Origin: Tubulanus polymorphus
Lineage: Eukaryota > Nemertea > Palaeonemertea > Tubulaniformes > Tubulanidae
Length of the DNA stretch: 64,000 nt
Reading direction: 5' to 3'
NCBI RefSeq assembly: GCF_964204645.1
Contig: NC_134025.1
Span: forward strand, 31,774,001 to 31,838,000
The position numbers were made by a program, and so were the translations under genes. The notes under the pieces were generated by a model. That model saw only the letters and a list, made by a program, of their open reading frames with translations. It was not told where the DNA came from and did no database searches. Position 1 is the first letter of the stretch. Each line of letters opens with the position of its first letter. Below, one piece after another: positions 5,555 to 11,500 of this stretch.

Positions 5555-8500
5555 CTGAAAACAATCATACATCGCATTATACATAGAGGTGACACAGAGG
5601 AGGTGAGAGGTCACAGGAGAGGTGAGAGGTCACAGGAGAGGTAAGAGGTCACAGGGAAGGCGAGAGGTCACAGGGCAGGACGGTGAGAGGTCACAAGGAG
5701 AGGTAAGAGGTCACAGGGAAGGTAAGAGGTCACAGGGAAGGCGAGAGGTCACAGGGCAGGACAGAGAGGTCACAAGGAGAGGTAAGAGGTCACAGGGAAG
5801 GCGAGAGGTCACAGGCCAGGACGGTGAGAGGTCACAAAGAGGGTATTTTTTACCTTGTATACTGATAGGAGCAGTAATGAACACGCCTGATGCTGCTGGT
5901 TCTGGTAGCTGCTGCTGCTGCTGCTGCTGCTGTTTCAGTTTCTCAGCTACTATCGTCATTAAACTCTTTTCTCGTTTTAGTTCTGATATCTCATCAGGTT
6001 GCGCGACGAGGAAGAATAAAGGTTGTTCTGATAATTGATCAGCTCTAGTTGTACCCTCTTTATCTACGACCATATTGATATAAGTATTACACACTTCACC
6101 ACTAGTTTCATATAACATTAATATAAATGTATCGATGTGTTGAATTATTGATTGATGACTTTCGTCGATGTTTGACTGAAGATGAAATAATCGATCGAAT
6201 GGACTCTGCAGGAATCCTGCTGATTCATGCTGCTGCTGCTGCTGATGTTTGAGGATTGATTTCACTGATTCCACAGTCAGCTCATTCTGATGTGAACCGA
6301 TCTCTATTAACGCGTGCAGTAAGAAAGTCATACTAATTCCTGCCTGTTTGTATAAATTTGCAGCTACTTCTGATTTGGCTACTTTCTGAATTAGGAATTT
6401 TAAACCTGGTCGACTGTCGAATTCAGTCGCCATTTTATAAGATTCCTGTAAACACTGCAGCAATGTTACTACATTTCTAGTCGATAAATTACCCAATAAA
6501 CCTGAAACATCAAATAATACATCGATTAAACCTTGTATAGATAGGGAGGAGGAATCCCTCTCAGCTACAGGTTGGAGCAATCCCTCTCAGCTACAAGTTG
6601 GAGGAATCCCTCTCAGCTACAAGTTGGAGGAATCCCTGAGAGCTTACCTGGTAAATTGTTATCGATAGAACTAGTTGTACTACTAGTTCGTCTACCCCTC
6701 AATAGATGGTGTTCGTTGTTAGCTATATTACTACAACCCTGCAGCAGAATAGCACCGATAGTTTGTAACAACAATTGATGAGACAATAATCCGACAACAA
6801 CGCTCCTGAATGGCACCCTGAAATAGACACAGTAGTTTCATAGATATCAGAGGGGAGTAGAGGGGGAGTAGAGGGGAGTAGAGGGGAGTAGAGGGGGAGG
6901 GGGGTGTTAGACTAGTACCTGGATAGTATATGATCAGGATTGATACTATTCCTATGTTCTGGTGGGTAGATTAAGAACACGTATGACCTATCTTTCTCTG
7001 TATCCGGTTCTGTTTCAGTTTGTGATGAAGATGTATTACTCCTCTGACTGTCCAACAGAAATACCTGTAATACACATAACATACTAAGCTGTAATACCAA
7101 ACAGTACCGGGTAATACATGTATCGTAATACACTTACCTGTAATGCTAACTGTTTTAAACGTTCACTCTCTGTAATATCACAATCTCTACGAGCTGCGAC
7201 CTTCACCTGTCCGATATCTCCGTAGAAATTATCCGAATTAGCGTGAAATAACGTCATCAATTGTTGAGTGCTGTACATAGTAACGTGTAACGCGTGTAAC
7301 AATGATTCGGTCGCTATGTACCACATACATTCAGTAAACAATACACCGGCGCTTAACAACGCATGTCTGAAATTAGACAATATCATCTATCAGCCTCTAT
7401 ACTACTGATACAGGGGTGAGAGAGGGGGGTCAAACATACCTGATACACAGGGGGTGAGAGGGGGTGTGTGTAAACATACCTGATACACAGGGGGTGAGAG
7501 AGGGGGGTAAACATACCTGATACACAGGGGGTGAGAGATAGGGGGTAAACATACCTGATACAGGGGGTGAGAGAGGGGGGGTCAAACATACCTGATACAC
7601 AGGGGGTGAGAGAGGGGGGTAAACATACCTGATACACAGGGGGTGAGAGATAGGGGGTAAACATACCTGATACAGGGGGTGAGAGAGGGGGTAAACATAC
7701 CTGATACACAGGGGGTGAGAGAGAGGGGGGTAAACATACCTGATACAGGGAATGAGAGAGAGGGGGGTAAACATACCTGATACAGGGGGTGAGATAGGGG
7801 GGGTCAAACATACCTGATACACAGGGGGTGAGAGAGGGGGGTAAACATACCTGATACACAGGGGGTGAGAGATAGGGGGTAAACATACCTGATACAGGGG
7901 GTGAGAGAGAGGGGGGGTCAAACATACCTGATACACAGGGGGTGAGAGAGGGGGGTAAACATACCTGATACACAGGGGGTGAGAGATAGGGGGTAAACAT
8001 ACCTGATACAGGGGGTGAGAGAGGGGGTAAACATACCTGATACACAGGGGGTGAGAGAGAGGGGGGTAAACATACCTGATACAGGGAATGAGAGAGAGGG
8101 GGGTAAACATACCTGATACAGGGGGTGAGATAGGGGGGGTCAAACATACCTGATACACAGGGGGTGAGAGAGGGGGGTAAACATACCTGATACACAGGGG
8201 GTGAGAGATAGGGGGTAAACATACCTGATACAGGGGGTGAGAGAGGGGGTAAACATACCTGATACACAGGGGGTGAGAGAGAGGGGGGTAAACATACCTG
8301 ATACAGGGAATGAGAGAGAGGGGGGTAAACATACCTGATACACAGGGGGTGAGAGAGGGGGGGTCAAACATACCTGATACAGGGGGTGAGAGAGAGGGGG
8401 GTAAACATACCTGATACAGGGGGTGAGAGAGAGGGGGGGTCAAACATACCTGATACAGGGGGTGAGAGAGAGGGGGGTAAACATACCTGATACAGGGGGT

Positions 8501-11500
8501 GAGAGAGGGGGGTAAACATACCTGATACACAGGGGGTGAGAGAGAGGGGGGTAAACATACCTGATACAGGGAATGAGAGAGAGGGGGGTAAACATACCTG
8601 ATACAGGGGGTGAGATAGGGGGGGTCAAACATACCTGATACACAGGGGGTGAGAGAGAGGGGGGTAAACATACCTGATACAGGGAATGAGAGAGAGGGGG
8701 GTAAACATACCTGATACAGGGGGTGAGATAGGGGGGGTCAAACATACCTGATACAGGGGGTGAGAGAGAGGGGGGTAAACATACCTGATACAGGGGGTGA
8801 GAGAGAGGGGGGGTCAAACATACCTGATACAGGGGGTGAGAGAGAGGGGGGTAAACATACCTGATACAGGGGGTGAGAGAGGGGGGTCAAACATACCTGA
8901 TACAGGGGGTGAGAGAGGGGGGTAAACATACCTGATACACAGGGGGTGAGAGATAGGGGGTAAACATACCTGATACAGGGGGTGAGAGAGAGGGGGGTAA
9001 ACATACCTGATACACAGGGGGTGAGAGAGAGGGGTAAACATACCTGATACAGGGGGTGAGAGAGAGGGGGGGTCAAACATACCTGATACAGGGGGTGAGA
9101 GAGAGGGGGGTAAACATACCTGATACAGGGGGTGAGAGAGGGGGGTCAAACATACCTGATACAGGGGGTGAGAGAGGGGGGTAAACATACCTGATACACA
9201 GGGGGTGAGAGATAGGGGGTAAACATACCTGATACAGGGGGTGAGAGAGAGGGGGGTAAACATACCTGATACACAGGGGGTGAGAGAGAGGGGTAAACAT
9301 ACCTGATACACAGGGGGTGAGAGATAGGGGGTAAACATACCTGATACAGGGGGTGAGAGAGAGGGGGGGTCAAACATACCTGATACAGGGGGTGAGAGAG
9401 AGGGGGGTAAACATACCTGATACAGGGGGTGAGAGAGGGGGGTAAACATACCTGATACACAGGGGGTGAGAGATAGGGGGTAAACATACCTGATACAGGG
9501 GGTGAGAGAGAGGGGGGTAAACATACCTGATACACAGGGGGTGAGATAGGGGGGGGGGGTCAAACATACCTGATACAGGGGTGAGATAGGGGGTCAAACA
9601 TACCTGATACACAGGGGGTGAGATAGGGGGGTAAACATACCTGATACAGGGGGTGAGATAGGGGGGGGGGGGGGGTCAAACATACCTGATACACAGGGGT
9701 GAGAGAGGGGGTCAAACATACCTGATACACAGGGGGTGAGAGAGGGGGGTAAACATACCTGATACAGGGGGTGAGAGAGGGGGGGTCAAACATACCTGAT
9801 ACACAGGGGGTGAGAGAGGGGGGGTCAAACATACCTGATACAGGGGGTGAGAGAGAGGGGTAAACATACCTGATACAGGGGGTGAGAGAGGGGGGGGGGG
9901 GGTCAAACATACCTGATACAGGGGGTGAGAGAGAGGGGTAAACATACCTGATACAGGGGGTGAGAGAGGGGGGTGTGTGTAAACATACCTGATACACAGG
10001 GGGTGAGAGAGAGGGGGGTAAACATACCTGATACAGGGGGTGAGAGAGAGGGGGGTAAACATACCTGATACAGGGGGTGAGAGAGGGGGGGGGGGTCAAA
10101 CATACCTGATACAGGGGGTGAGAGAGAGGGGTAAACATACCTGATACAGGGGGTGAGAGAGGGGGGGGGGTCAAACATACCTGATACAGGGGGTGAGAGA
10201 GAGGGGTAAACATACCTGATACAGGGGGTGAGAGAGGGGGGTGTGTGTAAACATACCTGATACACAGGGGGTGAGAGAGAGGGGGGTAAACATACCTGAT
10301 ACAGGGGGTGAGAGAGAGGGGGGTAAACATACCTGATACAGGGGGTGAGAGAGGGGGGGGGTCAAACATACCTGATACAGGGGGTGAGAGAGAGGGGTAA
10401 ACATACCTGATACAGGGGGTGAGAGAGGGGGGTGTGTGTAAACATACCTGATACATGAACAGCCCAATCTTGCTATACTCTCAACAGGTTGTGAGATACA
10501 TTCCACTAGTATATCTAATAACTGCTTTAACATGAATTCTAAACCACTTAAATCTTCCAGACAACCTGAAATATATAAACCGGTATTGATCAATGCCGAG
10601 CGCTGACTAGATTAAAACCTGGATTAAAACCAACACTTACCGACAAACTGTACGATATACTCGACAACTAAATCCGTACATAATCCACAACATTGTTTAA
10701 AATTAGCCGGAGATCCTTCCCAGTAACCGTGACTACGAGTACATTGACGTAACCAACTTTGTAACATCGGTAACAGTAAATGATTGATACAATGGATTCC
10801 GAACTCGGGACCTATACAAAAATACATCGTATTAATACATCGTATTACACTGTATGGTAATCGAATAGAACATCACTTACCAGGGGTGGTGGCGGCTGAA
10901 CGTAACAATTCGAATAACATTTCTAATGATTGTGGCTGGTAAGATTTAGGACATTGCGAAACGGAAGAAGCTAAACCTTCGAAGAGTAAGAACCAGACGT
11001 GAAGGACTCCTGTGTGATTGTCTATAGTAGACAGAGTACGAGTCGGTGTGTTTATATCTAATCTAGAAACACAACCACCACCTGCGGCATGTGAGCACCA
11101 GCTATCTGTATAAACATCGTAATCGTGTTCCTCGTCGTGAGTGAAATATTCCTCACTCGAATAATGAACCATCGCTTCGTCGACGTTGAGTTCCGCCTGT
11201 TCGTCATAGGTGTCAGCACCGGTCGAGTGGAAACATTTCCGGAACGCGTCTAAATTCATGTTTGGTATCACAGGATCGACGCATTTAGGAACGGAGTTTA
11301 AACGTATACTGAAATGAATAGTGAATGTATTATAGGATAGAGACAGAGAGCGGGGTCGATGTAATATACGATATACATACCTGTGGGCTCCATGGAATAT
11401 AGGACAAGCCGGCATATTCCACATACGAGCAAGTATCGTAGAACATTGTTGTAAATATTTCAGAGCCGGTAAACATAAATTCTCACTGGATTCAGGTAGA

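Follow-up and report, generated by a model that had tools for sequence, protein, structure and literature searches.

The rules by which one of several identical splice donors is chosen are known mostly from designed minigenes. In human IFI6 (6-16, G1P3), a minisatellite reportedly carries multiple splice donors, as Turri, Cuin and Porter are said to have described in 1995. Two downstream repeat units of IFI6 are reported to act as donors. Tandem duplication is also described as a route of intron gain, for potato RdRp (duplication across an intron-exon boundary), vertebrate ATP2A1 and, for fission yeast, 24-bp AGGT repeats (PMC4974935). Recursive splicing at zero-nucleotide exons involves 3' and 5' sites juxtaposed around AG/GT (the slash marks the junction) in exceptionally long introns (PMC8906543). 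Here, a 3-kb tandem array that repeats an exon end and its splice donor was analyzed in intron 33 of a predicted Sec7-domain gene of the nemertean Tubulanus polymorphus. The stretch of DNA analyzed, referred to as the window, comprises 64,000 nt (GCF_964204645.1, contig NC_134025.1, forward-strand positions 31,774,001 to 31,838,000). The reading that we consider probable is that a minisatellite started over a splice junction in a part of the chromosome rich in repeats, and that the first donor is used, with occasional slips that break the frame.

The array and the intron that holds it

The array is located on the minus strand at 7405–10455 and was delimited by repeat and junction searches; it consists of 80 internal units of 34–45 nt (most commonly 37 nt) and partial units at the ends. 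When TGTATCAGGTATGTTTA was searched with at most two mismatches, 81 matches were found in the window, all on the minus strand at 7431–10455, against a shuffle mean of 0.04. The unit pattern is GTATGTTT(G)A–C-run–CT tract–CAC–CCCCTG(TG)TATCAG, with variants. All 80 internal units start with GTATGTTT and finish with TATCAG, and the array contains 81 TATCAG/GTATGTTT junctions (CAG/GTATGT), the first of which is the real exon end. The split into units relied on this junction string, but no double-length unit conceals a mutated junction. The 3-kb ladder of AG/GT units proposed by an earlier reading of the letters (the sequence-only reading) was thus found, and its estimate of 80–90 regenerated donors can be given exactly as 80 internal donors and the real one. 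A 20-base piece of the unit, TGTATCAGGTATGTTTACCC, has 53 exact matches in the 267.8-Mb assembly, every one of them inside the array.

The first junction, TGTATCAG/GTATGTTTA, occupies 10439–10455 on the minus strand, with the donor G at 10447, and the repeat unit contains a complete donor. Based on the gene model and the homology across the join, the array starts at the real end of the upstream exon (10448–10565, minus strand; exon 33 among the 40 modelled exons, exon 29 in the sequence-only reading), which ends in TGTATCAG. The exonic part of the copied junction is these 8 nt, and the remainder of the common string is the intron start; the junction string is thereby identical to the real exon end and donor, as had been claimed. 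In 200 sets of shuffled introns, no exonic match of at least 8 nt was found. The copied junction, absent from the shuffled sets, supports a tandem duplication across the exon-intron boundary as the likely origin of the array, an origin that the sequence-only reading had also suggested.

The internal units fall into 25 kinds. Agreement in kind was found for 18 of 73 pairs at a lag of seven units and 12 of 71 at a lag of nine, and for none of the 79 pairs of neighbours (6.8% expected); in addition, blocks of eight and of seven units recur within the array. Because neighbours are never of the same kind, lags of seven and nine often agree and these blocks recur, the array expanded by multi-unit blocks. 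The ACACAC variant is present in both the first and the last internal unit, as if the two ends were the oldest parts. The 14-base junction core is unchanged in the 80 units, and the 25 kinds are confined to the unit middle. Selection on the core was considered and rejected: the kinds differ mainly in the lengths of the C, CT and TG runs, and the invariance of the core was not taken as selection because the middle also has few substitutions.

A dynamic-programming gene model, for which tandem arrays were masked before exon prediction, placed 40 exons on the minus strand between 23914 and 4596. When the model protein was searched against Pfam, DCB, Sec7, HDS and BIG2_C domains scored above the cut-off and HUS below it; the proteins for the Pfam and structure-chain searches were hand-edited from the model, with doubtful pieces removed (including exons 6–7 and the initial residues of exon 35). 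On these domain matches the gene is classed as a member of the BIG/Sec7 family (BIG/ARFGEF3-like). Its likeness to ARFGEF3 itself is presumed.

Exon 33 (10565–10448) ends in ...ARLGCSCI plus AG, and the downstream exon 34 (7138–7366, minus strand; gene model and homology) starts at 7366 with A CAT GCG. With the first donor (10447) spliced to the acceptor at 7367, the reading frame is restored and the join reads C-I-R-H-A-L-L. Through this join, the alignment to the solved SEC7 protein chain 8ucq_B has no gaps (E 0.0017). The kept frame and the ungapped match make the first donor, paired with the acceptor at 7367, the combination that would yield the conserved protein. The real acceptor, ttgtctaatttcag, belongs to the non-repeat tail of the intron in the gene model (7367–7404, minus strand). 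The intron had earlier been placed at 7405–10447; the array within it was confirmed, and the real acceptor (7367/7366) lies 38 nt below that start. Intron 33 is 3081 nt long. Among the 31 introns between confident exons of the gene (median 101 nt), 17 measure 49–116 nt and 14 measure 224–3081 nt, and all 14 introns above 200 nt overlap a tandem array, which in the 224-nt intron has only 2.2 copies.

The preferred reading can be set out as follows. A short tandem duplication would have arisen across the boundary of exon 33 and intron 33, in a minisatellite-rich stretch near the contig end, and would have included the donor together with the final 8 bases of the exon, before expanding to 3 kb by the copying of multi-unit blocks. 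In this growth account, the identity of the junctions, the block structure and the local array density are observed, and the order of events is what we infer from them. The duplication may have been tolerated because neither the exon end nor the donor is altered in the first copy. The first donor of exon 33 would be spliced to the acceptor at 7367, as the protein homology across the join suggests, so that the array would be removed as one 3081-nt intron. The 80 internal donors would be decoys of equal nine-base strength, and the use of any of them would leave array units in the mRNA. Most likely, the array arose passively, as a by-product of the many repeats in this part of the chromosome, and it would most likely have no function beyond adding decoy donors. 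Buffering by repeated U1 binding, also proposed in the sequence-only reading, would be a conjectural role of the copied donors.

Splice-site quality and alternative readings

To score the copied junctions, splice-site matrices were trained on the gene's own sites. Model exons 5, 6 and 23–26 are doubtful and were excluded, which left 33 of the 39 sites of each type, donors and acceptors alike; one acceptor kept in the matrix (exon 37, score −12) is also doubtful. The internal donors (CAGGTATGT) score 12.0, equal to the real donor, and all 80 have the same nine bases. This donor outscores 26 of the gene's 33 donors in a leave-one-out comparison, and of 1289 other GTs only 8 reach its score, so that the regenerated donors of the sequence-only reading are supported as strong ones. 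The scores support the presence of 81 copied donors, as predicted sites.

One alternative is that the choice among these 81 equal donors is noisy: several would be used, mRNAs that keep units would be destroyed or truncated, and the array length would tune the amount of protein, a larger form of the IFI6 case. The internal donors share the nine bases of the real donor, and the last donor of the array (7439) lies 73 nt from exon 34 and its real acceptor, a distance typical of introns in this gene. When each internal donor was joined to exon 34, the product was in frame without a stop in only 1 of 80 cases (the seventh unit, +267 nt), and in the other 79 the frame was lost or a stop gained. Heavy use of internal donors would therefore be costly to the gene, and we regard noisy choice as unlikely, if the most serious competitor of the decoy account.

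Alternatively, the fused AG/GT junctions may be ratchet points, so that the intron would leave in successive pieces, each at least two units long. Judged by the junction sequence alone, juxtaposed 3' and 5' splice motifs are present around AG/GT at the 80 internal junctions, each behind a tract with a median pyrimidine content of 0.81, and in the five units inspected a CTCAC branch-like motif lies 14–16 nt upstream. In addition, two units (~75 nt) amount to a normal intron length of the gene. Against this, the internal acceptors scored poorly. With the long matrix their median was −7.9 (range −9.4 to −2.8), below 32 of the 33 modelled acceptors, which scored 2.1 to 15.3 apart from the doubtful one at −12, and 803 of 1090 other AGs scored at least as high as the internal median. 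With the short matrix (−8 to +1) the internal median was 1.1, compared with 8.8 for the real acceptors, of which 1 of 32 fell below it. The internal tracts outrank the real ones (median 0.62) on pyrimidine content alone, because they are C-rich where the real ones are T-rich. Because the matrix is small (33 sites), these scores weaken the acceptor half of the junction rather than exclude it. The form of a ratchet site, AG/GT after a pyrimidine-rich tract, was therefore found as the sequence-only reading described it, but its acceptor half is weak by the predicted scores, which do not support working ratchet sites. Stepwise removal is improbable as the main route; by the gene's own standard for acceptors, it would be a minor one at most.

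In a related possibility, the array would act as a self-correcting splice ladder, in which a second splice restores the correct mRNA after any internal join, or after the last donor has first been spliced to exon 34 across the normal 73 nt. Such a second splice could do so because every internal AG repeats the exon end. When splicing was modelled by random choice with a minimum intron of 49 nt, 178 of 300 runs ended without array sequence and 122 with exactly one unit, in a model that presupposes usable internal acceptors. If this were so, retention of one unit would be the main error, and splicing would be normal whatever the array length. The acceptor scores from both matrices speak against a ladder of this kind, which would need working internal acceptors, and we consider it doubtful, about as improbable as ratcheting. 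An assembly error in the repeats, as the source of the array or of its length, is very improbable: the exact unit search matched one place in the assembly only, as would fit an artefact, but the 25 unit kinds stand in ordered blocks and five more junction-spanning arrays with different units lie nearby.

Arrays in the surrounding region

The window lies 226–290 kb from one end of its contig (C1), and arrays are dense there: 7–18 per 10 kb were counted in eight adjacent pieces, compared with 0–8 (median 1.5) in 20 contig samples. When the gene's 19 arrays were placed at random as seeds of one unit each (with unit lengths of three arrays hand-set to 37, 19 and 25), 2.3 junction-spanning seeds were expected if seeds may fall anywhere, and 4.3 when nearly wholly exonic seeds were removed. 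Three junction-spanning arrays were observed in the gene, or four with the candidate at 6548–6637. Their number fits random seeding, and no sign that arrays prefer splice junctions was obtained for this gene under this test.

Wider counts were made on 180 arrays from 28 pieces. Donor-bearing units were found in 10 arrays at the loosest score threshold and in 5 at the next, compared with shuffle means of 9.1 and 3.2; reversed-unit controls gave 2, 0 and 0 from the loosest to the strictest threshold. Acceptor-bearing units numbered 27 and 12, compared with 20.2 and 7.8 in shuffles. In a pattern count, strong donors were found in 2 of 116 arrays (0.2 expected, reversed 0). Three tandem copies of AGGTAAGT occur 30 times genome-wide, compared with 107 for the reversed controls, and thus show no excess.

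Several observations weigh against the preferred reading. The copied exonic match is just 8 nt, and the identity of the donor in use follows from predicted sites and homology. The last donor lies at the normal 73-nt distance, and a rule of proximity or distance would therefore favour the wrong end of the array. At the strictest donor score, 4 of the 180 arrays carried a donor, compared with a shuffle mean of 0.92 and a largest shuffle of 4. Genome-wide, tandem triplets bearing CAGGTATGT were matched 106 times (23 forward, 83 reverse) and the reversed control not at all. Of these matches, the 83 are two arrays of this gene, and 17 of the 23 forward ones fall in two C6 places, the only others among the matches listed (6 are unlisted). 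A mild excess of arrays at junctions is possible; nothing in these counts indicates to us that arrays are drawn to donors in general, and seeding in a compact gene would be expected to produce such arrays. The two C6 places (C6:146281–147084 and C6:165972–166108 of assembly G000) are 26-bp arrays with GACAGGTATGTAGGGGG.

The AG/GT ladder is not peculiar to intron 33. In 134 kb around the gene, 98 arrays (period 12–120, at least 2.5 copies) were found, and six were accepted as junction-spanning, at four donors and two acceptors in four gene regions. Acceptance was based on a copied junction and on our own reading of the coding flank, for all 12 donor rows and the best 14 of 25 acceptor rows, with several rows per array. 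In the same gene, a second donor-junction array (22565–22947, minus strand) spans the donor of exon 3 (22926–23007, minus strand, in the gene model); it has 10.9 copies of a 35-bp unit with the junction GTATACAG/GTATGTACC and 22 exonic nt copied. At the acceptor of exon 17, an array at 15402–15634 (minus strand) has 5.9 copies of a 40-bp unit, the junction TAATACAG/GTTTATTGAGTG and 12 exonic nt copied. A donor-junction array of a neighbouring gene (2099–2203, plus strand) has 3.8 copies of a 28-bp unit with GTGCACTG/GTAAGTGAG. An upstream plus-strand open reading frame has a Pfam TFIID-18kDa match and probably belongs to the same gene, which we take to be SUPT3H-like. A further neighbouring gene, presumably BTBD9-like, holds a donor-junction array at L035 9056–9742 (minus strand; 51-bp unit, 13.5 copies, GTCGCAAA/GTAAGTATA, 14 exonic nt copied); the exon before it has a below-cut-off F5/8 type C match, and the array was accepted on this match and our reading despite a coding score of −1.2. 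At L033 6145–6277 (minus strand), an acceptor-junction array (37-bp unit, 3.6 copies, 17 exonic nt copied) precedes an exon with a P450 match above the cut-off.

Other candidates were set aside. A possible array at an acceptor of the Sec7-domain gene (6548–6637, minus strand; 26 bp, 3.5 copies) was left out of the six because its AG scores poorly (−4.1). The array at 5598–5815 on the plus strand sits within the Sec7-domain gene, on the strand opposite to it, the AG of that at 17499–17738 differs from the modelled acceptor, and the 64-bp GCTGCTGGTG arrays were dropped, as were others among the inspected rows, in which the coding flank was unconvincing. Two partial acceptor copies (8 intronic and 6 exonic nt) at the doubtful exon 6 were not counted.

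Additional repeats were observed in the region. A perfect (TGC)n tract at 13272–13489 (72.7 copies, 100% match; CAG on the gene strand) lies in or beside the same gene, and a 26-bp array at 20217–21375 (44.8 copies, 96% matches) lies in that gene's region. Between 28188 and 63026, the same tandem repeats return every ~11.3–11.5 kb (for example at 31254, 42730 and 54058), a pattern that a large segmental tandem duplication would give. Telomere-like AGGGTTAGGGTTA was found within repeated 23-bp units at 28188–28231, 39584–39627 and L010 4774–4817.

Comparison with known systems

One intron with 81 donors of the same nine bases, many of them distinguishable by unit variants, would provide a natural test of donor choice, which the further junction-spanning arrays of the same stretch, two of them at acceptors, extend. 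The array also illustrates a plain route of intron growth. Among the papers listed on junction-spanning minisatellites and tandem-duplicated splice sites, from a corpus with few subscription journals, no case closer than IFI6 was found.

The array shares with recursive splicing an AG/GT within an intron that would regenerate a donor; recursive splicing subdivides exceptionally long introns, whereas here 80 junctions with poor acceptors follow one another about every 37 nt within 3 kb. As in potato RdRp, a tandem duplication over an intron-exon boundary provides splice signals, but unlike the intron-gain cases, a pre-existing intron seems to have been lengthened here. In contrast to the 12-bp, in-frame unit of IFI6, the units here measure 34–45 nt, are joined at 81 copies of the junction and each carry an AG and a pyrimidine tract. 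In both cases minisatellite units carry splice donors, of which IFI6 uses downstream units, whereas those described here are known from sequence alone. At this level of comparison, human IFI6 is the precedent that the array appears to resemble most.

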